Positions 6,688 through 28,014 of a stretch of 50,707 bases of DNA are shown here, in pieces. Source of the stretch: a virus. Position numbers and translations under genes: made by a program. The notes beneath the pieces are model-generated. The model was not told the origin of the DNA, did not search any database, and worked only from the letters and a program-made list of their open reading frames with translations. Within the stretch, counting starts at the first letter, position 1; every line of letters begins with the position of its first letter. The stretch covers positions 1 through 50,707 of IMG/VR virus record IMGVR_UViG_3300017743_000017; one strand, given 5' to 3'.

Positions 6688-7915
6688 ACTTAGTGAAATG
6701 TCTAAAACTGCTTCTCCTGAAGCGGCTGAAAAGGAAACAGGAATTCCAAAAGATGACCAACGTGTAGGAAAAGTTACTTATAGTAAAGATGGTGATACCA
6801 AATTTACTGTTACTAATATAAATCCTGAAACGGGTCAAATATCTTGGAAAATTACTAACCTCCCTGCTTTTGATAAATTACTTGATGATGCTGATGCATT
6901 AATTTCTACTTCTAAAGGTGTTTACACTAAAACCAAAGACGATGAAAAATTCAGAGAGTTTTACGAAGAAGCAAGATCGATAAGAAATAAAATCAGAAAA
7001 CACCTTAGAAACGAATACCCAGACGAATATAAAAGAATACAAATGTTTGGGGAAGCTTATAGTGGATTTTTAAGAAACCCAGAAGACCCAGATTCAAAAC
7101 CATTTGAACCAAAAGGAGCAGTGTCTGAATTTAGAGAAGAGTTAAGAGCATTATTTGGTAAATTTAAAGGTGATCTAAAAAACCCAGAGTTTATAAAAGG
7201 AGTAGCTCAAATAATGGTTAATTGGAAATCACTTTTAAGAAGTCAAATGGATGAAGCTGATGTAGACGAAGCGTCAATGTCAGGTGCAGCTGGTGCTTAT
7301 AATACACCTTATGCTTTTAGAAAAAAAGGTTCTAAACCTAATGTAGGTGCTTTAACTAAATTAGGATATAAATTAGTTAAAAAAGATAAAGAGGATATAA
7401 ATGAAGAAAAAGCTATTACATTTAGACCCGGTACTTTGGATGATATAGAATTATCAACACGAATATTAGATAAATTTGGAATTAAATATAAAATAAATAA
7501 TTATGATCTAATATTATCAAATGACGATTATTTAGTTGTTTTAGACTATTTAAAAGGTGGAAATAATGTTAATGTTAATTTATCAAATTCAATATTAAAT
7601 GAAAATGAATCACCATCATTAAATGCTAAAACATATGCTGAAGATATGATGAGACAATATCGTAAAATGTTTAGAATTGTTGACGGTAACTTTGGTAAAG
7701 AAGCAGCAGAAGAATTTAAAAATATTGTAAAGTCTAAAATGGCTCAATTACAAGAAGGAGTAGGCGCTAGTTTAGGCCCTGGTCCCAAAGCAGGTCCTGA
7801 TGGGGTTACTGATAGCGCTTATACAAAACAATTTAAATATAAATTAGTTCCTAAAACAAAAGATGGTACATATGTACAAAAAGGATCAGGAATGGTAGTT
7901 AAAAAACTATTTTAA
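6671..7915 (+). CDS. Putative prohead/virion precursor protein, unknown function
   Basis: The 414-residue product overlaps the previous gene by 17 bp. It is hydrophilic. Residues about 85-135 form a charged helical region (DDEKFREFYEEARSIRNKIR), then a helical stretch runs to about 190. An unusual SGAAGAYNTPYAFRKKGSK segment sits near residue 205, followed by linker-like sequence and a C-terminal VPKTKDGTYVQKGSGMVVKK tail. Several Leu/Ile-x-Glu tripeptides could be sites for the gp21-like protease encoded downstream, but none stands out. It belongs to the head block (portal to capsid), so an internal core or minor capsid role is plausible. No family is recognised. Confidence 0.75.
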   Translation: MAYKYKLSEMSKTASPEAAEKETGIPKDDQRVGKVTYSKDGDTKFTVTNINPETGQISWKITNLPAFDKLLDDADALISTSKGVYTKTKDDEKFREFYEEARSIRNKIRKHLRNEYPDEYKRIQMFGEAYSGFLRNPEDPDSKPFEPKGAVSEFREELRALFGKFKGDLKNPEFIKGVAQIMVNWKSLLRSQMDEADVDEASMSGAAGAYNTPYAFRKKGSKPNVGALTKLGYKLVKKDKEDINEEKAITFRPGTLDDIELSTRILDKFGIKYKINNYDLILSNDDYLVVLDYLKGGNNVNVNLSNSILNENESPSLNAKTYAEDMMRQYRKMFRIVDGNFGKEAAEEFKNIVKSKMAQLQEGVGASLGPGPKAGPDGVTDSAYTKQFKYKLVPKTKDGTYVQKGSGMVVKKLF

Positions 7916-7916
7916 T

Positions 7917-8150
7917 ATGTATAACCGTAATATAAAAGAAAACAAAAATAAAGCATCTAAATTTCATGAGGAACGTATAGAAGCTTTTAATAAATTAGAA
8001 GCTAGATTTGAGGATATTAAAAAATCAATCAAATTAGCTAAAATAGAAACAATAAAATATTACAGAGATAATCCAGAAAGCTTTGCTGTCGTAATTGGGA
8101 CAGATATGATTAACGATTATTTTAACGATATAGAAACATTATTACAATAA
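7917..8150 (+). CDS. Small helical protein, unknown function
   Basis: The product is 77 residues, basic and mostly helical (KASKFHEERIEAFNKLEARF near the start), ending in an acidic NDYFNDIETLLQ helix. The ATG directly follows the stop of the preceding gene with one intervening base, and the next gene begins 7 nt after its stop, so it is embedded in the head operon. Its size and position recall small T4 prohead-core components such as gp67 and gp68, but the sequence does not establish homology. Confidence 0.7.
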   Translation: MYNRNIKENKNKASKFHEERIEAFNKLEARFEDIKKSIKLAKIETIKYYRDNPESFAVVIGTDMINDYFNDIETLLQ

Positions 8151-8157
8151 TATAATT

Positions 8158-9735
8158 ATGAAACAAACACCAAATCAATTATTCGAACAACTTTCAAAGG
8201 AATTTAGTCCTAAAAAAGATAAAGAATTAATCAACGAGGAATTAGGTCAAGTAATAACATTAAAACCTATTAATACTATTGAAGCAAGCCCAAAAGAACC
8301 ATTTTGGACTAAATTTGAAAACTTTCTTGCTGAAGGTGGGGCATTAGAACCAATTGTTAATACCGAAGAAAAAACTAATACTTTAGAAGCAGAGGAAAAA
8401 GTAAAAGCTGATTCTAAATTAAAATACGAAATGGACAGTAAATTAGCGGGTTCATATAAAATTTCTGATGGTGTAGAAAACATTGCTTCTCATAACTATG
8501 ATTATGATACTACTGTAGAAAATATTAATAATGTAAATGGAGAAGAATTATTAAAAGGAGTCCAGTTAGAAATTAAGTATAATGAAGAATTATCTCTTGA
8601 TGAAGCTAAAGAACTTGTTATCAAAAACTTAGCTAAAAATCCTTTACATTATGTAGAAGAAGGTCAATTTGGTGTTAAAGGTTTAGGATACACAGAAGGT
8701 AAACAACAACAAAATGATGGTGAAACTTATGGTGGAAGTGGATTTAGTGAAAAATTAAAAGATGGTGGTGATTCTATGGAATTAGTAAAAGAATCATTAG
8801 GCCAAGTAGTAACTTCAGGAAATCCAAATTCATTAGCAGCTCAATCAGGAAATATTATTCGTCAAATGATGGCTGAAAAAGAAGAAGCTCCACTACCAAT
8901 GGATGAAATGGAAGATGAAGGTACAGCTGTATCTTATTCTGATACTACTATGGAAGCTAAAGGAAAAGATCATGATGGTGACGGTGATGTAGATTCGGAC
9001 GATTATATGGCAGCTAGAGATAAAGCTATTAAAGCAGCTAAAGCTAAAAAACCTAAAAAAGAATCAATCGATTCTAAATTAGCTGAAATTGGCAAGGCAG
9101 GTGATATTACTAAAATGGAGGCTCAGTTAGAATTTTTATCAAATTATATATCTGAAAAATCAGATAGAGTAAATTCAATATCCGAAGATGAAAATTTATC
9201 TGAATTAGTTGATAAAAAGAAAATGAAAGATATGCAGAGAGAAATCAAGCTTTTAGAAAAAAGAAAAGGCAAGATGGAAAAAATGTATGAAAAAATGTGT
9301 GGTAAAAAATACAAAAAAGCTGAAATGGTAGACGAAATGGATGCTGTAAGCTGGAATGAAAAAAATAACCCAACTAGAGGTGCTGCTGGAGAAAGAGATC
9401 CTAAAAAAGTAGGTCAATCAACATCTGCTTATGCTATTAACGAAATGGCAGCCGGTGGTTTAAAAGAAAAAAGTGCTGGTAAAAAACTTTTTGCAGCTTT
9501 TAAAAAAGATGGTTTAAAACCTAATTATATAGCAGATGTAAGAAAAGTATCTAGTGATGGAGAAGCTAAAGATATGGTACACATTGAACCAGGAGAAGGT
9601 TCGGTAGAGGTATCATCTTCTTCTAATCAAGATAAAATTGCTCAAGCCATTAAATCCGCAGGATTTAATATTTCAAAAGAAGAAGATAATGTAGGTAACT
9701 ATAAATTATCAGTATTTACTATAGATATTAAATAA
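8158..9735 (+). CDS. Putative prohead core/internal virion protein with an EF-hand-like loop
   Basis: The 525-residue product is acidic and low in aromatics, with long Lys/Glu-rich stretches, as expected of a scaffold or core component. Near residues 271-283 it carries DHDGDGDVDSDDY, a calcium-loop pattern with acidic residues at alternating positions as in EF-hand or dockerin loops. A basic and Met-rich region follows (about residues 345-385). It sits directly upstream of the gp21-like protease and is probably a protease substrate. EF-hand-like loops are, from memory, seen in prohead proteins of other large myoviruses. Whether this one binds calcium is untested. Confidence 0.75.
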   Translation: MKQTPNQLFEQLSKEFSPKKDKELINEELGQVITLKPINTIEASPKEPFWTKFENFLAEGGALEPIVNTEEKTNTLEAEEKVKADSKLKYEMDSKLAGSYKISDGVENIASHNYDYDTTVENINNVNGEELLKGVQLEIKYNEELSLDEAKELVIKNLAKNPLHYVEEGQFGVKGLGYTEGKQQQNDGETYGGSGFSEKLKDGGDSMELVKESLGQVVTSGNPNSLAAQSGNIIRQMMAEKEEAPLPMDEMEDEGTAVSYSDTTMEAKGKDHDGDGDVDSDDYMAARDKAIKAAKAKKPKKESIDSKLAEIGKAGDITKMEAQLEFLSNYISEKSDRVNSISEDENLSELVDKKKMKDMQREIKLLEKRKGKMEKMYEKMCGKKYKKAEMVDEMDAVSWNEKNNPTRGAAGERDPKKVGQSTSAYAINEMAAGGLKEKSAGKKLFAAFKKDGLKPNYIADVRKVSSDGEAKDMVHIEPGEGSVEVSSSSNQDKIAQAIKSAGFNISKEEDNVGNYKLSVFTIDIK

Positions 9736-19004: not shown

Positions 19005-19016
19005 AAATAAAAAATA

Positions 19017-20321
19017 ATGGCTAATAACGTTAGATTTGTAGACTCCCTTAAAGCAGGACAATATAAAGGCAATCCAGGTCCACAAGGACCAGTTGGGCCT
19101 TCAGGTTCAGCTTTTCCTTTTACGGGTTCGGCTGGAATAACAGGTAGTTTAGATTTAACTGGTAGTTTTAACGCATCAGGTAGTACACATGCAATTACAG
19201 GACAAATAACTTTTGGAGGAGTCAATGTAACATCCTTAAACTCAGGCGGAGGTCTAAACCAACTATCTCTTAATGTAGCAGATTCCAATGATAGTAACAA
19301 CCCAGATAATTATTTACTTCATTTAGATAATCTTGGAGATGGAATGTTTTATGCTAAAAGTTTAGAATTAGGAGATGGTGAAGGAGTTTTCAATGGAACA
19401 AACCTTCAGATTGATTCTCCAAATAATCAATTTTTATTTGAAAATGGTAATGTAGGGATTGGAACTGGTAGTCCTAGTGAAAAATTACAAGTTGAAGGAA
19501 ATATAAGTGCAAGTGGATTTATTCAAAGTAATCAAATAAATAGTAATCAAATAACTGGAAGTAATTTAGCTATAGGTACAGACTATAATTCCCTTCCTAA
19601 TGACCCCGGATATACAGGTATAATTTCAAGATTTGATGGTGGTGTATTTTTTAATATTAAAGAAGAAGCATTAAAGACTTTTGGTATTAATAGTGCAGCA
19701 GTAGGAGACGGCATTTTACAAATTGATACTGATCCAAACCATTTTTTACTAGACCCGACAGGTAATGTTGAGTTAAAAGTAGGATTAGGAGTTGTATCTC
19801 CCTCAGCTTCTTTAGATATAGTAGGAAATATCCAAGCTTCGAGTCATATAACAGCATCTGGTAATATCAGTGCAAGTGGAGATCTTTCTGCTGCTAACAT
19901 AAATGTCCCAACTAATGGTACTACATCATTTGGCTCAAACGTAACTTTTACAGCAAACCAGTCTACAACTTTTGCTTCTAATACAATTGCTAGTGGATAC
20001 CCACTAAATATAATTCCAAGCAATGGTGTTTTTATTAAATCCGCATTACTGTTTGGTGAAAATATTGCAGCGTTTAATAATAATGGTTCTGTTGATTTAT
20101 ATTATGATAACTCAAAGAAATTTGAAACTACTACAGCTGGTATAAATGTAACAGGAAATATTACAGCTTCGGCTAATATAAGTGGAAGTGGTACTGGTAG
20201 TTTAGGTAGTTTATTAGTTGACGGCTCTTCTATCGATTTTACTAATGTTCCAATTTCTGATCCTGGGGTTGCTGGAAGATTATGGAGAGATGGAACAGAT
20301 TTAAAAATATCTGTGGGGTAA
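19017..20321 (+). CDS. Tail-fibre protein with short collagen-like segment
   Basis: The product is 434 residues. Near residue 20 is a short Gly-Pro-Gln/Gly-Pro-Val triplet segment (GNPGPQGPVGPSG) that could trimerise. This is followed by Gly/Ser/Thr-rich repeats (TGSLDLTGSFNASGSTHAIT) and typical fibre units such as NVGIGTGSPSEKLQVEGNIS. The repeats resemble those in the fibre at 15148, so the two are probably paralogous in their shafts. No catalytic motif is visible. It follows the neck genes after 12 nt and is probably part of a whisker or side fibre involved in host contact. Confidence 0.8.
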   Translation: MANNVRFVDSLKAGQYKGNPGPQGPVGPSGSAFPFTGSAGITGSLDLTGSFNASGSTHAITGQITFGGVNVTSLNSGGGLNQLSLNVADSNDSNNPDNYLLHLDNLGDGMFYAKSLELGDGEGVFNGTNLQIDSPNNQFLFENGNVGIGTGSPSEKLQVEGNISASGFIQSNQINSNQITGSNLAIGTDYNSLPNDPGYTGIISRFDGGVFFNIKEEALKTFGINSAAVGDGILQIDTDPNHFLLDPTGNVELKVGLGVVSPSASLDIVGNIQASSHITASGNISASGDLSAANINVPTNGTTSFGSNVTFTANQSTTFASNTIASGYPLNIIPSNGVFIKSALLFGENIAAFNNNGSVDLYYDNSKKFETTTAGINVTGNITASANISGSGTGSLGSLLVDGSSIDFTNVPISDPGVAGRLWRDGTDLKISVG

Positions 20322-20343
20322 TAAATAATAAATAATAAATAAT

Positions 20344-20359
20344 TTTAGAATATTCTAAA
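20344..20359 (+). repeat. 16-bp perfect palindrome TTTAGAATATTCTAAA
   Basis: Located in the 81-nt gap between a fibre gene and the next late-type promoter, and preceded by AATAAAT-type direct repeats (from about 20323). It lacks GC pairs and a clear T tract beyond TTTT, so at best it is a weak terminator; a protein-binding site is an alternative. Confidence 0.5.
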
Positions 20360-20376
20360 TTTTGCTTTTAAATTAC

Positions 20377-20390
20377 ATATTTATAATAAA
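20377..20390 (+). promoter_or_regulatory. Late-type promoter, exact ATATTTATAATAAA
   Basis: Exact consensus ending 12 nt before the ATG at 20403. Confidence 0.65.
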
Positions 20391-20402
20391 TAAAAATAAC
20401 AA

Positions 20403-20717
20403 ATGAAACATATTTGGAAAATATACAATCTTGAAAGAATAAAGGCAGATGGTTTTGTTACTGATGTAACATATGCCTGTGAGTCATCAGATAATAATAT
20501 ATCTACTAGATTAATTGGAGATTTAACTTTATCAGGTTCAACAGAAGAACCAGGATTTGTCCCTTACGAAAATCTTACTGAAAGTGAGGTTTTAGGTTGG
20601 GTAAATGCTAGTATAGATGAGGCTGCTGTCGAAACAGCAAATTCTGCTTCAATTGCTGCTATGGCTATAGCTAGAGCGGCTATTACAAGTTCTAATGGGA
20701 TACCTTGGCTAGAATAA
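20403..20717 (+). CDS. Small fibre-associated-type phage protein (DUF7936-like)
   Basis: The product is 104 residues. The opening WKIYNLERIKADGFVTDVTY, with a beta-rich middle and a C-terminal Ala-rich helix (IAAMAIARAAITSSNGIPWL), matches my memory of a small family placed beside tail-fibre genes in marine myoviruses. The family name is uncertain. It has its own exact late-type promoter and is the last structural gene before the sulfate-related cassette, which begins 34 nt later with a different promoter class. It may be a virion protein or a fibre-assembly factor. Confidence 0.7.
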   Translation: MKHIWKIYNLERIKADGFVTDVTYACESSDNNISTRLIGDLTLSGSTEEPGFVPYENLTESEVLGWVNASIDEAAVETANSASIAAMAIARAAITSSNGIPWLE

Positions 20718-20751
20718 AAATTAAAGATTTTTTGATGCTCTTTTAAAATTT

Positions 20752-20782
20752 TTTGGGAGTACTAAATTATTTTTGTATATTA
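20752..20782 (+). promoter_or_regulatory. Early-type promoter TTTGG-N18-GTATATTA for the sulfate cassette
   Basis: TTTGG (20752-20756) and GTATATTA (20775-20782) are exactly 18 nt apart, identical in form to the sites before 209, 40766 and 42554. It ends 20 nt before the glycosyltransferase ATG and places this cassette under a promoter class otherwise used by replication genes. Confidence 0.75.
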
Positions 20783-20802
20783 GTTATAGTAAAAAGTTAT
20801 AG

Positions 20803-21681
20803 ATGAATATTTTATTCCAAATAGATGGGGGCTTAGGCAAATCAATCATGGCAACTGCAATGGTTAAGGTTATAAAAAAACGTTATAAAAACGCTAACCT
20901 TATAGTCGTTACTGCTTACCCCGATGTGTTTTTAAATAATCCTAGTGTTAGTAAAGTTTATAATACTAATAACATAAATGGTTTTTATTTAAAATATGTT
21001 AAGGATCAAAAATGTAAAATTTTTGTTGAAGATCCTTATAGAAATGAGGATTTTATTCTAGATAAACCCATAAAATTACTTAAAACTTGGTGTGAATTAT
21101 ATGGTTTACGTTACAATAACGAACAACCCGAACTTCACCTTACCCAACCAGAATTAGATTATTTTAAACCGTATTATACTACAGATAAACCAATATTAGC
21201 TATTCAAACTAATGGAGGACCAGCAGGTATAGGGTACCAATATGCTTGGACAAGAGATATCCCAGAACCAACCATTTTAGAGTTAATAAACCATTATAAG
21301 GATGATTATACTATAATTCATATAAAAAGAGAAGATCAAAAAATATATCCTGATACAATGCAAGCACTGGATGGTTATAGAAGTATAGCTATATTACTTC
21401 TTTTATCTTCAAAAAGATTATTAATGGATAGCTTTGCACAACATATGGCTGCAGCTCTAAATAAAAAATCTACAGTTTGTTGGGTTAGCACAAAACCAGA
21501 AATATTTGGGTATAAAATACATGATAATATAAAATCAAATCCATTTACTAAAGAACCCTCTTTACATGAAGCAGCTTATCAACCATTTGCTTTATCGCAA
21601 GATATACATTCAATACCTTATAATGATTTAAAAGAAATATTTAGTACGAATAAAATTATAGAATCGATAAATAATCAATAA
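20803..21681 (+). CDS. Glycosyltransferase family 9-like (heptosyltransferase-like)
   Basis: The product is 292 residues. It begins MNILFQIDGGLGKSIMATAM, then VKVIKKRYKNANLIVVTAYP and NNPSVSKVYN, matching the GT9 pattern of a Gly-rich loop followed by a helix and a Pro-Asp-Val strand. Near residue 210 SKRLLMDSFAQHMAAALNKK recalls the D-S-x-x-x-H-x-A-A-A-L donor-binding segment. Members transfer heptose or another sugar onto cell-surface glycans. It is first of five overlapping genes: its stop overlaps the sulfotransferase start by one base. I infer that it builds or extends a glycan which the following enzymes sulfate. Sugar and acceptor cannot be read from sequence. Confidence 0.75.
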   Translation: MNILFQIDGGLGKSIMATAMVKVIKKRYKNANLIVVTAYPDVFLNNPSVSKVYNTNNINGFYLKYVKDQKCKIFVEDPYRNEDFILDKPIKLLKTWCELYGLRYNNEQPELHLTQPELDYFKPYYTTDKPILAIQTNGGPAGIGYQYAWTRDIPEPTILELINHYKDDYTIIHIKREDQKIYPDTMQALDGYRSIAILLLLSSKRLLMDSFAQHMAAALNKKSTVCWVSTKPEIFGYKIHDNIKSNPFTKEPSLHEAAYQPFALSQDIHSIPYNDLKEIFSTNKIIESINNQ

Positions 21682-22499
21682 TGGAAGAAATATTTTTTCA
21701 ATCTTCATTACCTAGAGCAGGTAGTACTTTATTGCAAAATATATTGGGTCAAAATCCTGATTTTTATGTAACCCCCACATCAGGCGTATTAGAATTATTA
21801 TATGCAGCTAGACAAAATTATACAAATGATAATGCCTTTAGAGCTCAGGATTCTAAACTAATGAAAAAGGGATGGCTTAATTTTTGCAATCAAGGTTTAG
21901 AAGGATTTTATAAAGGCATAACACATAAAAAATTTATTGTAGATAAAAGTAGAGGATGGGGTATACATTATAATTTTTTAAATTCATTTTATTCAAATCC
22001 AAAAATAGTTTGTATGGTAAGAGATTTAAGATCTATTTATACATCTATGGAAAAAAATTTTAGAAAAAACCCCGAAAAAGATGATGGGACTGTAAATTGG
22101 AGTAAAATGAAAGGTACTACAACTGCTAAAAGAATTGATATTTGGGCTGACTCACCTCCAATAGGAATTGCAATTGAAAGACTTCAACAAATAATTAATG
22201 AAGGGATAGATAAAAAAATTCATTTTCTCCGTTTTGAAGATCTAACCTCAAATCCACAAGAAGAATTAAATAAAATTTATAATTTTTTCCAAATAAAAGA
22301 ATATAGTCATGATTTTGACAATGTTAAACAATTAACACAAGAAGATGATACAGTACATGGTATGTTTGGGGATCATAAAATTAAAAAACAAGTAAAACCT
22401 ATACCCCTTACGTATAATGAAATTTTAGGACCACAACTTTCACAAAACATAGTTAATACTTATCCCTGGTTTTATGAATATTTTAATTACAAAATATGA
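21681..22499 (+). CDS. PAPS-dependent sulfotransferase
   Basis: The product is 272 residues. Residues 8-18 (SSLPRAGSTLL) form the 5'-phosphosulfate-binding loop typical of sulfotransferases. CMVRDLRSIYTSM near residue 112 is the 3'-phosphate-binding VRD-x-R...S segment, and LRFEDLTSNPQEELNKIYNF near 190 is the usual later motif. The enzyme would move sulfate from PAPS to a hydroxyl on a glycan, small molecule or protein. It lies directly before an APS kinase, which makes PAPS, with a 4-bp ATGA overlap, and after a glycosyltransferase, so the sulfated target is most likely a sugar. No membrane segment or signal peptide is seen, so it is probably cytoplasmic. Confidence 0.88.
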   Translation: MEEIFFQSSLPRAGSTLLQNILGQNPDFYVTPTSGVLELLYAARQNYTNDNAFRAQDSKLMKKGWLNFCNQGLEGFYKGITHKKFIVDKSRGWGIHYNFLNSFYSNPKIVCMVRDLRSIYTSMEKNFRKNPEKDDGTVNWSKMKGTTTAKRIDIWADSPPIGIAIERLQQIINEGIDKKIHFLRFEDLTSNPQEELNKIYNFFQIKEYSHDFDNVKQLTQEDDTVHGMFGDHKIKKQVKPIPLTYNEILGPQLSQNIVNTYPWFYEYFNYKI

Positions 22500-22966
22500 T
22501 ATACTGGTTTACAGGACAGCCGGGTTCAGGCAAAACAGTTTTAGCAAATCTACTTAAAGAAAAATACCTACCTCATGCTTATCGTATAGATGGAGATGAA
22601 ATGAGAGAATTATTTACAAATAAAGATTATTCTATAAAAGGTAGAATAACTAATGTAGACACCGCTCAAAAAATTGCTCATTATTTACATAATCAAGGTA
22701 AAGATGTAATTGTATCTTTAGTTTCTCCTTATTTAGACCAAAGAAAAGAATTTAAGGACATAATGGAGTGGCAATTACAAGAAATTTTTGTATATTATGA
22801 TGTAGATAAAGGGCTTAGAGGTAGAGAAAATTATCATGTTATGCAATTCCAAAAACCGGATTTAGATTACATTGATATTGATACTACAAAACAAACCCCA
22901 GAAGAATCATTAAAGGTAATAGCTAAAAAATCTGGTTTAGATATGATATATTCTAAAGGATTATGA
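22496..22966 (+). CDS. cysC: Adenylylsulfate (APS) kinase
   Basis: The 156-residue product has Walker A GQPGSGKT (residues 7-14), RIDGDEMRELF (about 30-40) for substrate contact, the R-x-x-N of GRITNVDTAQ (about 49-58) and VSLVSPYLDQRKEF (about 73-86), the family's ISPY-R block. It phosphorylates APS with ATP to give PAPS, the donor used by the sulfotransferase upstream. Cellular APS kinases are nearer 200 residues; the lid and C-terminal region are shortened here, but the motifs look intact. It overlaps both neighbours by 4 bp (ATGA), consistent with coupled translation. Host APS or the next gene's product could supply its substrate. Confidence 0.88.
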   Translation: MIYWFTGQPGSGKTVLANLLKEKYLPHAYRIDGDEMRELFTNKDYSIKGRITNVDTAQKIAHYLHNQGKDVIVSLVSPYLDQRKEFKDIMEWQLQEIFVYYDVDKGLRGRENYHVMQFQKPDLDYIDIDTTKQTPEESLKVIAKKSGLDMIYSKGL

Positions 22967-23322
22967 GTAAAAAATATTCAATGTTTATTGGAAGGTGGCA
23001 ACCCTTACATCAAGGTCATCTTTGGTTAATCAATCAAAGATTACAAGAAGGAAAGAATGTATGTTTAGCAATTAGAGATGTTGAACTAAATGAAAATCAA
23101 CCTTGGACCGCTAAAGAAATAGAAAAGATGGTTCATGAGGGTGAGTTAAAAGGATTGATACAAGATGGTAGAGTTATTACAACAATAATACCTGATATTG
23201 AATCAATTAATTATGGTAGAGGTGTTGGGTATGAAGTTATTGAACATATACCACCAACGGAAATAGGTGAAATATCAGCTACAAAAATTAGAGAACAAAT
23301 GAGAAAAGATGGTAAGTTATAA
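22963..23322 (+). CDS. HxGH nucleotidyltransferase (adenylyltransferase-like), substrate unresolved
   Basis: The product is 119 residues. GRWQPLHQGH (residues 10-19) is the HxGH nucleotide-binding signature and ISATKIRE (104-111) is the matching C-terminal ISSTKIR motif of cytidylyl/adenylyltransferases. IPDIESINYGRGVGYE lies between them. Because it follows an APS kinase and precedes a DUF2061 gene, one idea is a minimal ATP-sulfurylase-type enzyme making APS. The motifs also resemble archaeal-type NMN adenylyltransferase (GRFQPxHxGH, SATEIR), so NAD metabolism is a real alternative. The protein is short for either family. It overlaps the upstream gene by 4 bp and the downstream one by 14 bp. 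Confidence 0.8.
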   Translation: MSKKYSMFIGRWQPLHQGHLWLINQRLQEGKNVCLAIRDVELNENQPWTAKEIEKMVHEGELKGLIQDGRVITTIIPDIESINYGRGVGYEVIEHIPPTEIGEISATKIREQMRKDGKL

Positions 23323-23521
23323 AAGACACATTGCAAAAACAATATCATGGAGAATAATAGGAACAATAGACACAGTAATTATTTCAGGACTTATAACGGG
23401 TTCTTGGGGAGCAGGGTTAGCTATAGGAGGGGTAGAAATTATCTCCAAAATGGTGCTTTACTTTCTACACGAAAGAATGTGGTATAAATTTAGTAAATTT
23501 GGGGTAAATAAAAATAATTAA
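23309..23521 (+). CDS. DUF2061-family small membrane protein
   Basis: The product is 70 residues. It begins KRHIAKTISWRIIGTIDTVI, the typical DUF2061 start, with a Trp-Arg-x-x-Gly-Thr-x-Asp-Thr pattern. Two hydrophobic segments follow (about residues 13-31 and 33-53), then the ending VLYFLHERMWYKFSKFG. In flavobacteria DUF2061 genes are, from memory, often found in sulfate-assimilation operons, sometimes next to APS kinase or sulfurylase genes; that context is mirrored here. The role is not known; sulfate or other ion handling is speculation. It overlaps the preceding gene by 14 bp and closes the cassette: a late-type promoter begins on the next base. Confidence 0.85.
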   Translation: MVSYKRHIAKTISWRIIGTIDTVIISGLITGSWGAGLAIGGVEIISKMVLYFLHERMWYKFSKFGVNKNN

Positions 23522-23535
23522 ATATTTATAATAAA
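23522..23535 (+). promoter_or_regulatory. Late-type promoter, exact ATATTTATAATAAA
   Basis: Exact consensus beginning right after the DUF2061 stop and ending 11 nt before the ATG at 23547. It restarts late transcription after the sulfate cassette. Confidence 0.65.
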
Positions 23536-23546
23536 ATAAAAATAAA

Positions 23547-23807
23547 ATGAGTAAAAAAGAAATTATTAAGTTATCAGAAGAGGAATTAACAATTCTTAAA
23601 GGTTATCAAAAAAAACAAAATCAAATTACTTTTAATTTAGGTAATGTTGATATACAAAAAGCTATTCTTGAGGGACAAAGAAGTCAAATATTAGAAAATT
23701 TAGCTAATTTACAAGAAGAATCTAATAAAACAGCTAAGAAACTTCAAGATAAATATGGTGATGGGAATATTGATTTAGAAACTGGTGAATTTACTATTGT
23801 AGAATAA
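23547..23807 (+). CDS. Small coiled-coil phage protein, unknown function
   Basis: The product is 86 residues, mostly helical with a heptad-like pattern (EEELTILKGYQKKQNQITFN, then AILEGQRSQILENLANLQEE), ending in KYGDGNIDLETGEFTIVE. The final Gly-Asp-Gly...Asp-Leu-x-Thr-Gly-Glu-Phe segment is seen, from memory, in small hypothetical proteins beside tail genes in marine T4-like phages. It has its own exact late-type promoter, and the sheath gene follows after another one. Likely a tail-assembly accessory factor; not proven. Confidence 0.75.
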   Translation: MSKKEIIKLSEEELTILKGYQKKQNQITFNLGNVDIQKAILEGQRSQILENLANLQEESNKTAKKLQDKYGDGNIDLETGEFTIVE

Positions 23808-23838
23808 TTTTAAAGTTTTAACTATAATATATTTGTTT

Positions 23839-23852
23839 ATATTTATAATAAA
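23839..23852 (+). promoter_or_regulatory. Late-type promoter, exact ATATTTATAATAAA
   Basis: Exact consensus ending 9 nt before the first sheath ATG. Confidence 0.65.
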
Positions 23853-23861
23853 ATATTATAG

Positions 23862-26225
23862 ATGGCAGAAACATTAATATCCCCAGGTGTATTATCCTCA
23901 GAAAATGATCAATCCTTTGTTACCTTAAGACCCCAAGATAGAGGAGCAGCGATTATAGGACCAACAGTTTTAGGCCCAGTAGAAAAACCTACTTTAGTTG
24001 GGTCGTTTAGTGCTTATCAGGCAATTTTTGGTGGTGCTTTAGAAAGTGGTTCTAATGAATACACTTATCTTACCTCAATAGCGGCTAATAATTACTTTCA
24101 GAACGGTGGAACATCTTTATTAGTAACTCGTGTAGTTTCAGGTTCATTTACCTCAGCAACAAGTTCATTTGTAAATTCAGTAGATGGTGAACCTTTATTA
24201 ATTGGTGCGGATGCTGCATTATTTGCTAATGGAGTATTTGCAGGGTCAAATTTTACTGGATCAGTTGATGGAGGAACATCTTACAGAATCACTAGTGCAG
24301 TATTTACAACAAATGGTAGTGGAACCGGAGGTGTAATTAATTTAGATATTGATACAGGAGTTCCTAATGGGGTAGGTGTAACTACAGCGGGAACAGGGTA
24401 TGAAGTAGGAGATACATTAACATTTTCTACAAATGATAATTATGGTTCACCATTAATTTCAACTTCAATTCTTAATGCTGTTACAATAAACACCTTTAAT
24501 ACAAATACAGATCCATCTACTACTTTTGATGGAACTTATAGATTTCAAAGTGGTAGTACTGCTGCTACAGATTTAATAGTAAGTAATGGAGGTACTGCAA
24601 CAGGAGTAGAACTTGAGGTAACTATTTTAAATGGAGCAATTACTAATGTAGTACCATATGTTGCTGGATCTGGTGAAGGTGAAGGATCAATAGTAGGTAC
24701 AACATTTGAAATTTCAGAAGATGCTATAAATGCTCAAACTGGAGACGCAAACGGAACAGGTAAGCTTACATTAGTGATTACAGAAGCTGAACTAAGCGCA
24801 GGAACTTTTACAATAACTTTAGAAGCAGAAAATCTAGAATCTTCACTATCATCATTGGAGTTAGAAACAATTTCTGAAGGAGAAGTAATGAATACTGGAA
24901 CAAGCGAATTATCAAATGGAGCTTTAGCTAGTGGGTCTGCTCAAAATTTAAGGTGGGAAATTACATCAGCTAATACATCATCAGGAGTATTTTCACTTGC
25001 AGTAAGAAGAGGAGATGATACTAATAATAATAAAATAATTTTAGAAACTTTTAATAATATTTCATTAGATCCCTTTGCCCCAAATTATATTTCAAAAGCA
25101 ATTGGTGATATTTCAACCCAATTAGTAACAGAAGGAGTTGATACATTTTTACAAGAAAGTGGTTCTTTTCCTCAAATATCAAACTATGTAAGAGTTAAAT
25201 CTGTAAGAAAAACTCCATATTATTTTAATAATGATGGATCAGCAAAAGATCAATTTACAGGTAGCCTACCATCAGTATCATCAGGTTCATTTGGTGGTGC
25301 TGTAGGATCAAATACTCCAGCTGATAGAGCAGCTAATTTTTACCAAAATATTAATGATTCAGATACACAAGGATTAAAAGGATTTGATTATAATGATGCA
25401 ATCTCTTTATTATCAAATAAAGAAAATTATCAATATAACATAATATCTGTTCCCGGTTTATCGGTTCAATACCAAAATGCCCAAGTTACAAGTATAATAA
25501 ATAACTCTATTTCTAGAGGTGATAATATAGCTGTAGTAGATTTAGTAGGATATAACCAATCTATTAATACAGTAATTAATAAAGCTTCTGGAATAGATAA
25601 TAGCTATGCTTCTACCTATTGGCCATGGTTACAAACAATTGATCCTAATTCAGGACAATTAGTGTTTATACCAGCTTCAACATTTATACCAGGGGCATAT
25701 GTCTTTACAGATAAGTCGGCAGGTTCTTGGTTTGCTCCTGCGGGAAAAATTAGAGGGAAAATGGGGCAAGTTGTTAGAGCTGAAAGAAAATTATCATCTA
25801 CAAACAAAGATACTTTGTATGAGGCAAATGTTAATCCTATAACTACTATGCCTAATAAAGATGTAATTATATATGGACAAAAAACACTACAAAAGGCAGC
25901 TTCTGCATTAGACAGAGTAAACGTGCGTAGATTATTGATAATATTAAAAGATTACATATCCCAAATATCAGATACTTTAGTATTTGAACAAAATACAATC
26001 TCAACACGAAATAATTTTTTAACTCAAGTTAATCCTTATTTAGAAAATATTAAACAAAAACAGGGACTATATGATTTTAAAGTGATAATGGATGAAACAA
26101 ATAACACCCCTGATGTTATAGATAGAAACGAGTTAGTAGGACAAATATTTCTAAAACCAACAAAAACAATTGAATTTGTAATTCTTGATTTTAACATACT
26201 ACCTACGGGAGCAATTTTTCCTTAA
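23862..26225 (+). CDS. Tail sheath protein, enlarged paralogue (gp18-like)
   Basis: The product is 787 residues. It is collinear with the next sheath gene at both ends, starting MAETLISPGVLSSENDQSFV and ending with DRNELVGQIFLKPTKTIEFV plus a short tail. It carries about 217 extra residues between roughly residues 108 and 328. The insert is Gly/Thr/Asn-rich and beta-type, with GTGYEVGDTLTFSTN and a second related unit, as in fibre or bristle modules. The sheath is the contractile outer cylinder of the tail. Two sheath genes in tandem, one with an inserted surface domain, suggest that the virion decorates part of its sheath or can switch forms. It has its own late-type promoter. Confidence 0.92.
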   Translation: MAETLISPGVLSSENDQSFVTLRPQDRGAAIIGPTVLGPVEKPTLVGSFSAYQAIFGGALESGSNEYTYLTSIAANNYFQNGGTSLLVTRVVSGSFTSATSSFVNSVDGEPLLIGADAALFANGVFAGSNFTGSVDGGTSYRITSAVFTTNGSGTGGVINLDIDTGVPNGVGVTTAGTGYEVGDTLTFSTNDNYGSPLISTSILNAVTINTFNTNTDPSTTFDGTYRFQSGSTAATDLIVSNGGTATGVELEVTILNGAITNVVPYVAGSGEGEGSIVGTTFEISEDAINAQTGDANGTGKLTLVITEAELSAGTFTITLEAENLESSLSSLELETISEGEVMNTGTSELSNGALASGSAQNLRWEITSANTSSGVFSLAVRRGDDTNNNKIILETFNNISLDPFAPNYISKAIGDISTQLVTEGVDTFLQESGSFPQISNYVRVKSVRKTPYYFNNDGSAKDQFTGSLPSVSSGSFGGAVGSNTPADRAANFYQNINDSDTQGLKGFDYNDAISLLSNKENYQYNIISVPGLSVQYQNAQVTSIINNSISRGDNIAVVDLVGYNQSINTVINKASGIDNSYASTYWPWLQTIDPNSGQLVFIPASTFIPGAYVFTDKSAGSWFAPAGKIRGKMGQVVRAERKLSSTNKDTLYEANVNPITTMPNKDVIIYGQKTLQKAASALDRVNVRRLLIILKDYISQISDTLVFEQNTISTRNNFLTQVNPYLENIKQKQGLYDFKVIMDETNNTPDVIDRNELVGQIFLKPTKTIEFVILDFNILPTGAIFP

Positions 26226-26301: not shown

Positions 26302-28014
26302 ATGGCAGAAACATTAATATCTCCAGGAGTATTAGCAAGAGAAAACGATCAATCTTTTGTTACATCCCAACCAGCTGAAAGAGGTGCGGCAATTATAGGC
26401 CCAACTGTATTAGGTCCTGTTGAAAGACCTACATTAATTAGTTCATTTAGTTCTTATCAAGCAATATTTGGTGGGACATTAGAAAGTGGTTCTGGTGAAT
26501 TTACGTACCTTACTTCTATTGCAGCCAATCAATATTTCCAAAATGGAGGAACGTCTTTATTAGTAACTAGAGTAACTTCAGGTTCATTTACCGCAGCAAC
26601 AAGTTCAGCAATTAATAATTTTGATGCAAATAATGCTTTTGAATTAGAAACTATTTCTGAGGGTGAAATAATGAATACTGGAGTTGATGAAATATCAAAT
26701 GGAGCTTTAGAAACTGGTTCTTCTTATAATGTTAGATGGGAAGTAGCTGCAGTTAATACATCTTCTGGTGTATTTAGTTTATTAGTTAGAAGAGGTGATG
26801 ATACTAATAGTAATAAAGTAGTATTAGAATCTTATAATAATATTTCATTAGATCCCTTTGCTTCAAATTATATTTCTAGAGCAATTGGTGATATTTCTAC
26901 TACTTTAGTAACAGAAGGAGCTGATACATTTTTACAAGAAAGTGGTTCTTTTCCTAATATTTCTAACTATGTAAGAGTTAAAGAAGTTAAAACCCCAACT
27001 CCTTACTATTTCAATAATGACGGATCAGCAAAAGACCAATTTACAGGGAGCATGCCAATAATTGGTTCTGGTTCTTTTAATGGAGCAGATGGTTCAAATA
27101 TCCCAACAGGTAGAGTAGCTAATTTTTACCAAAACATTAATGCTACAGATACACAAGGGTTAGTTGGAGATGATTATGATAATGCAATAGCATTATTAGC
27201 AAATCAAGATGATTATCAATTCAATGTAATATCAGTACCAGGTTTATCAAACCAACACCAAGCATCTCAAATTACTAGTGTAATGAATAACTCAATTTCA
27301 CGAGGTGATAGTATTGCTGTAATTGATTTAGTTGGATATAACCAACTAATTGGAACAGTAACAAACCAAGCAGCTGGGATTGATAACAGTTACACAGCTA
27401 CATATTGGCCTTGGTTACAAACCGTAGATCCAAGTTCAGGTATGTTAGTATATATACCAGCTTCAACATTTATACCAGGAGTATATGCGTTTACAGATGC
27501 TTCAAGTGATCCATGGTTTGCACCAGCAGGTATTACTAGAGGTGGAATGGGACAGGTTGTTAGAGCTGAAAGAAAATTAACTTCTACAAATAGAGATACT
27601 TTATATGAAGCAAATGTAAACCCAATTGCAACATTCCCATCACAAGGAGTTGTAGTATTTGGTCAGAAAACATTACAAAAAGCAGCTTCTGCATTAGATA
27701 GAGTAAATGTACGTAGATTGTTAATTACACTTAAGAGTTTTATCTCTCAAATTGCAGATAATTTAGTATTTGAACAAAATACAATTGCAACAAGACAAAA
27801 CTTTTTAACACAAGTAAATCCATATTTGGAAAGTGTTCAACAAAGACAAGGATTATATGCCTTTAAGGTAGTAATGGATGAAAGCAATAATACACCAGAT
27901 GTTATAGATAGAAACGAGTTAGTAGGACAAATTTTCTTACAACCAACTAGAACAGCTGAATTTATATTACTAGATTTCAATGTATTACCAACTGGAGCAA
28001 CATTCCCAGCATAA
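26302..28014 (+). CDS. Tail sheath protein, compact paralogue (gp18-like)
   Basis: The 570-residue product has the standard sheath layout without the insert of the upstream copy. It begins MAETLISPGVLARENDQSFV, and the C-terminal core contains RAERKLTSTNRDTLYEANVN, ASALDRVNVRRLLITLKSFI and DRNELVGQIFLQPTRTAEFI, which match gp18-type sheaths. T4 gp18 is 659 residues. Conservation with the upstream copy is high over the N-terminal 100 and the last 400 residues, so a duplication, with insertion or loss of one domain, is clear. It should form the bulk of the contractile tail. The tail tube gene follows behind its own promoter. Confidence 0.94.
   Translation: MAETLISPGVLARENDQSFVTSQPAERGAAIIGPTVLGPVERPTLISSFSSYQAIFGGTLESGSGEFTYLTSIAANQYFQNGGTSLLVTRVTSGSFTAATSSAINNFDANNAFELETISEGEIMNTGVDEISNGALETGSSYNVRWEVAAVNTSSGVFSLLVRRGDDTNSNKVVLESYNNISLDPFASNYISRAIGDISTTLVTEGADTFLQESGSFPNISNYVRVKEVKTPTPYYFNNDGSAKDQFTGSMPIIGSGSFNGADGSNIPTGRVANFYQNINATDTQGLVGDDYDNAIALLANQDDYQFNVISVPGLSNQHQASQITSVMNNSISRGDSIAVIDLVGYNQLIGTVTNQAAGIDNSYTATYWPWLQTVDPSSGMLVYIPASTFIPGVYAFTDASSDPWFAPAGITRGGMGQVVRAERKLTSTNRDTLYEANVNPIATFPSQGVVVFGQKTLQKAASALDRVNVRRLLITLKSFISQIADNLVFEQNTIATRQNFLTQVNPYLESVQQRQGLYAFKVVMDESNNTPDVIDRNELVGQIFLQPTRTAEFILLDFNVLPTGATFPA

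Follow-up and report, generated by a model that had tools for sequence, protein, structure and literature searches.

The window analysed here is the whole of a 50.7 kb IMG/VR record (IMGVR_UViG_3300017743_000017, 50,707 nucleotides), a marine T4-like myovirus with genes for a prohead protease, PhoH, a gp32-like protein, ribonucleotide reductase and two tail sheaths. On its + strand, five genes span positions 20803-23521 and overlap successively by 1, 4, 4 and 14 bp, exactly as described in an earlier reading made from the sequence alone (the sequence-only reading). This cassette encodes a GT9-like (GT-B fold) glycosyltransferase (GT) of 292 aa (20803-21681), a 272-aa sulfotransferase (ST) dependent on 3'-phosphoadenosine 5'-phosphosulfate (PAPS; 21681-22499), a 156-aa kinase of adenosine 5'-phosphosulfate (APS) in a short-lid form (APSK; 22496-22966), a 119-aa HxGH nucleotidyltransferase (NTase; 22963-23322) that is a candidate APS-forming, ATP sulfurylase-like enzyme by its PF01467 match, motifs and context, and a 70-aa DUF2061 membrane protein of a family linked to sulfate activation in bacteria (23309-23521). 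APSK, NTase and DUF2061 are the core of the cassette, and GT and ST are its changeable end users.

Two scans of IMG/VR, in which loci were picked by APSK or NTase, gave 154 loci in 101 groups at 95% identity. APSK is present in 99 of these groups, NTase in 100, DUF2061 in 78, a HAD phosphatase in 45 and an ST in 36, and APSK and NTase co-occur in 98/101. Loci that have no GT or ST still keep the NTase with APSK, and in 22 of the 36 ST groups the ST lies within 60 b of the core. The STs found beside the same core differ between loci (PF13469, PF00685 and PF03567), which points to a need for PAPS in common rather than to inheritance of one block alone. Because these loci had been selected for APSK or NTase, a control set was needed, for which we used 80 groups, each 9 kb or longer, of loci picked solely by a sheath or neck protein; a terminase scan gave mostly fragments, was unusable as a control and was replaced by the sheath and neck scans. 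In the control, DUF2061 is found in 11/11 groups with the core versus 0/69 without it (p=1e-13) and ST in 6/11 versus 1/69 (p=1e-5), with p-values that treat the 95%-identity groups as independent. The sole locus with an ST and no core (L459) is a stretch of contig 3300049736_000498, which bears the cassette of locus L003. The gene set is not a chance cluster.

The APSK scores 62.1 bits against PF01583 (cut-off 21.1; 8.1e-17), its nearest PDB sequences are APS kinases, and its P-loop, DGDxxR, GRxxN and PY..R motifs are invariant in 34 relatives and align with flavobacterial CysC. The ST exceeds the cut-offs of two Pfam families (PF13469, 63.4 bits vs 27, 4.6e-17; PF00685, 47.3 vs 22, 2.4e-12), and its PRAGST loop and RD..(7)..S region are kept across 24 relatives. 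The conserved residues (P13, R14, G16, S17, T18, R116 and S124 in open-frame numbering) include what we take to be the 5'-phosphosulfate-binding loop and the Arg and Ser of the 3'-phosphate-binding site. Both names given by the sequence-only reading, an APS kinase and a sulfotransferase with an LPRAGST loop, are thus borne out, and the P-loop and APS-site residues of the kinase and the PAPS-binding signatures of the ST are retained. APS kinases make PAPS from APS, and sulfotransferases spend it. Elsewhere, a PF03567-type ST-like gene lies at the cassette in L003 (4453-5163), and small ST3-type proteins (L030 5405-6004 and similar) have a loop like that of the phosphosulfate-binding site and no Pfam family match; ST3-type proteins count among the 36 ST groups, and none is in the control table by structural genes. 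For the GT there is no Pfam or NCBIfam profile match; its AlphaFold2 model (pLDDT 88.9) is nearest in Foldseek to GT9 heptosyltransferases (1psw, 2.4e-10; 3tov, 4.1e-10; WaaC). We therefore keep the label 'GT9-like', which holds at the level of predicted fold and not at that of sequence.

The HxGH nucleotidyltransferase was also named correctly: it scores 26.5 bits against PF01467 (cut-off 21; 8.2e-6), and its GRxQPxHxGH, GRGVGY and ISATKIR motifs are invariant among 33 phage relatives (G10-R11-x-Q13-P14-x-H16-x-G18-H19, R38, G85-R86-G87, G89-Y90, S105-A106-T107 and R110). It is an HxGH protein and not a CysD (PAPS_reduct fold) plus CysN GTPase. Fused kinase-NTase proteins are encoded by the Stenotrophomonas phages Bhz60 (L157 5148-6324) and DLP_6 (L156 5590-6321).

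The DUF2061 membrane protein lies well over the PF09834 cut-off (77.5 bits vs 23.1; 1e-21), as the sequence-only reading had it. Among 80 bacterial loci picked by similarity to the phage DUF2061, mostly from Flavobacteriales, CysD is present in 56, CysN in 53 and a CysQ-like protein in 52, names that we presumed from our own reading of the sequences, and the usual order in Bacteroidota is cysQ-DUF2061-cysC-cysD-cysN. Apparent natural DUF2061-CysC fusions in one frame (256-284 aa; Bacteroidota loci L164, L199, L226 and L228) tie DUF2061 to APS kinase. At L201, a short phage-like cysC (E 2.5e-47 to the phage profile) is followed by DUF2061-cysD-cysN. A search of 345 Bacteroidota genomes for a cellular NTase (E<=1e-9) came up empty; it had no positive control and so shows little.

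Cellular relatives of the NTase were found by its profile in five alphaproteobacteria of ~1 Mb, all from one taxonomic order, which share the gene order CbiX-cysG-cysI-cysH-DUF2061-kinase-NTase (L337 3267-8404, L338, L339, L340 and L359; the G776 contig breaks off inside cysG). Their CysH carries CC..RK, GC.PC and ECGIH, presumably the pattern of an APS reductase. No CysD is found in the five, since PF01507, which covers both CysD and CysH, yields only CysH over its cut-off; Sat is absent in 4/5 and in the fifth, G462, lies inside a polysaccharide cluster. An APS reductase pathway is incomplete without ATP sulfurylase, and the kinase-NTase pair appears to stand in the place of that enzyme; the operon is a candidate for an unrecognised bacterial route of sulfate activation. 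Two Pelagibacteraceae genomes (G056 and G058) and two of the same class with SAR11-like kinase-NTase surroundings (G646 and G736) have no CysD or Sat, yet sulfotransferases are present; sulfotransferases occur in 10/13 genomes searched, which were chosen because the NTase is present in them or in their order. Among 398 Pseudomonadota, the full-length NTase family is present only in G771 and G554, the others being NadM-like N-terminal matches. A cellular fused kinase-NTase (L342 3902-5002) has a sulfotransferase gene (7675-8478) 2.7 kb away.

We consider it rather likely that the cassette serves as a module for sulfation by the phage, with NTase and APSK making PAPS and the ST spending it on a glycan. 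The parts of this reading differ in confidence: that the module both makes and spends PAPS is likely, and the assignment of the NTase to APS formation, the ATP sulfurylase step, is somewhat less so and is the one we favour from gene context. Given that NTase and DUF2061 both have bacterial ties to sulfate activation, the PAPS of the phage probably starts from sulfate and not from APS supplied by the host; the cassette is then probably more than host-dependent sulfotransfer and most likely self-contained for PAPS making and sulfation. In the proposed mechanism, expressed from an early/middle-type promoter, the NTase would adenylylate sulfate with ATP to give APS, and APSK, by its family role and with its binding residues present, would phosphorylate APS to PAPS. 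The ST, also by family role, would transfer sulfate from PAPS to an acceptor, putatively a glycan that the GT9-like enzyme may help to build, and DUF2061 would be a membrane partner of sulfate activation. The HAD phosphatase of many relatives may clear the by-product PAP (3'-phosphoadenosine 5'-phosphate) as CysQ does. The most likely outcome would be an altered surface glycan, of host or virion, with superinfection exclusion or evasion as possible purposes. The joint pathway put forward in the sequence-only reading is partly supported, as one module with APSK feeding ST, by the control, by proximity and by the several ST families; what it missed is the APSK-NTase-DUF2061 core. More broadly, we lean slightly towards the NTase being a minimal and so far unrecognised kind of ATP sulfurylase, after Sat and CysDN, that is shared by marine phages and SAR11-like or related alphaproteobacteria, forms with the kinase a miniature PAPS synthetase for phage sulfation and would fill the missing sulfate-activation step of streamlined marine bacteria.

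Several observations weigh against this interpretation. In 65/101 groups no ST is within reach, which may reflect fragments or other acceptors. The phage APSK is without most of the canonical CysC lid (CERRDVKGLYKKAR...), being about 14 residues shorter with R.RD partly kept; the L201 cysC, inside a cysDN operon, has the same short-lid form. Archaeal NMN adenylyltransferase (NMNAT), and not Sat, is what the NTase resembles most in sequence and fold. The Pfam Sat family (PF01747) gives only sub-threshold matches over the NTase (15-17 bits vs 24.3, in three records), for which reason it is not filed as Sat, and an hhalign comparison with one Sat was uninformative (10.6% probability). The NTases of phages and of cells separate into two deep clades, and the cellular partner kinases carry NADExR where the phage has DGDxxR, so function may differ between the clades. 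Several cellular kinase-NTase pairs lie outside any sulfur neighbourhood, the absences rest on incomplete, metagenome-derived genomes and fragments and are weak evidence, and the fused protein of Bhz60 adjoins a NADAR gene, not far from a gene with a cysteine dioxygenase annotation.

The alternative closest to a self-contained module is that APSK and ST act as named on APS from the host's ATP sulfurylase, while the NTase serves another substrate, for example a sugar or lipid phosphate for the GT. APSK and ST are the best-supported parts of the cassette, flavobacterial relatives of the likely hosts possess cysDN, and the fold class of the NTase is that of NMNAT and PPAT. However, the NTase keeps to APSK without GT and ST, and it sits in the cysH operon of five alphaproteobacteria that have no CysD match, four of them without Sat, which makes this alternative unlikely. 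A second possibility that draws on the same fold is an NAD module that would restore NAD in the face of host defences, with the kinase acting as ribosylnicotinamide kinase and the NTase as NMN adenylyltransferase, the combination that NadR has. The best profile of the NTase is indeed archaeal NMNAT (PRK01153, 2.8e-10), its best fold is 1m8g/1ej2, and the NADAR neighbour in Bhz60 would fit. Yet the NTase stays below the NMNAT family cut-offs (PRK01153, 40 bits vs 127; TIGR01527, 25.6 vs 181), and its profile match stops at about residue 77: the protein is about 50 residues shorter, model residues 81-110 are of low confidence, and the NMN-binding half is missing or falls in that region. With a kinase nearest to APS kinases and linkage to DUF2061, cysH and ST, we regard an NAD module as improbable, and a plain NMNAT was rejected on the shortened protein and the sulfur context. 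It can be argued that a small second substrate such as sulfate would suit an NMNAT-like enzyme whose NMN-binding half has been lost.

Two further explanations concern the kinase. Viral cysC appears in earlier reports among the auxiliary metabolic genes (PMC12713726, PMC12766990), and its usual label is assimilatory sulfate reduction, 'not validated' (PMC12713726); on that account, the cysC-like gene would raise host cysteine synthesis during infection. None of CysD, CysH and Sat is over cut-off in 41 virus records, and sulfotransferases co-occur instead; we rejected the assimilatory role on the missing CysH and CysD and give it very little credence. The least credible explanation, at the very bottom of the range, is that kinase, HAD phosphatase and NTase are a Pnkp-type healing set for nucleic-acid ends, as a weak APSK match to the polynucleotide kinase family phrog_505 (4.4e-6) and a weak HAD match to HAD_PNKP (2.1e-5, below cut-off) might suggest. 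The APS kinase match is far stronger, neither the window nor more than half of the 101 groups have the HAD phosphatase, the HxGH fold is not a ligase fold, and DUF2061 and ST do not fit; with such weak matches and wrong partners, nucleic-acid repair was rejected as well.

The sequence-only reading gave the cassette its own promoter between late-type flanks. A motif of the form TTTGG-N18-GTATATTA lies before the cassette (20752-20782, + strand) and has four exact matches on the + strand of the window (163, 20752, 40716 and 42480), 0 on the - strand and about 0 expected, all preceding gene starts (209, 20803, 40766 and 42554, the last being the gp32-like gene). The late-type motif TATTTATAATA occurs 13 times on the + strand and 0 times on the - strand (0.47 expected), including before 20403, 23547 and 23862, and the copy at 23523-23533 (+) starts the next unit and marks the cassette boundary. 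The cassette motif thus differs from the surrounding one, as claimed; that the two are early/middle-type and late promoters is our interpretation of their patterns, and this part of the claim stays putative. Locus L010, whose cassette has neither GT nor ST, carries the early-type motif 55 b before the start of APSK. In most other relatives no exact copy was found at the cassette, and 13/150 loci have one anywhere. A strict Bacteroidetes promoter pattern is no commoner than by chance.

By its sheath protein, the virus has Flavobacterium phage immuto as its nearest isolate (54% identity). Neck and tail-sheath genes stand about 1.0-1.4 kb apart in most cargo-free relatives and 5.9-8.7 kb apart in cassette carriers, and the interval is also long in some relatives with different cargo; hence the cassette sits in a cargo site. 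In the window this neck-to-sheath interval is at about 19005-23862, and relatives use it for cargo as well, including long fibre-like genes (L374) and glycosyltransferase-like genes (L525 and L430). The tail-sheath genes themselves are in tandem (23862-26225 and 26302-28014; 787 and 570 aa) with near-identical N-termini. At 473-1003 the window encodes an AAA_28 P-loop protein (PF13521, 1e-10), which we take to be of the kinase type also present in NadR.

In the open-access literature we found no account of the module or of a role for its NTase. Viral cysC and phage sulfotransferases are already known separately, the latter with unclear function (PMC10580990), and the module offers both (PMC10580990, PMC12713726) one common purpose, sulfation, that is supported by the control. 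The module also places DUF2061 in a pathway. Should the NTase prove to make APS, it would represent a new enzyme family that closes the gap in alphaproteobacteria whose CysH is of the APS-reductase type and in which no ATP sulfurylase is recognised; it would also matter for SAR11, which has been described as without cysDNCHIJ and sat and with AprBA (PMC5069961). Both sulfation by viruses and a gap in sulfur metabolism as known so far thereby become directly testable.

Compared with known systems, the reported viral cysC belongs to the same APS kinase family, whereas the cassette APSK is tied to sulfotransfer and accompanied by the NTase. The STs of cyanophages S-SKS1, S-SRM01 and S-SCSM1 and of OM43 phages belong to the same Pfam family at 27-31% identity (PMC10580990), but tblastn finds no relative of the cassette APSK or NTase in those cyanophages. 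Archaeal NadM shares the fold and the GRxQPxHxGH and S.T..R motifs of the NTase, which differs in its shortened second-substrate region, family-specific YGRGVGY motif and different neighbours. The Bacteroidota cysQ-DUF2061-cysC-cysD-cysN operon resembles the cassette in having APSK beside DUF2061, a phosphatase in many relatives and sulfotransferase or polysaccharide genes nearby, and the L201 cysC is the nearest cellular cysC to the phage APSK (42% identity); in place of CysDN and CysQ, however, the cassette has the 119-aa NTase and, in many relatives, the HAD phosphatase. The PAPS synthetase of animals is a fused APS kinase and ATP sulfurylase. Although the phage NTase, at about 119 aa, is not recognisable as Sat above cut-off, the cassette has the same arrangement of a kinase followed by an HxGH-superfamily nucleotidyltransferase, with fused forms in phrog_10255, L341 and L342.

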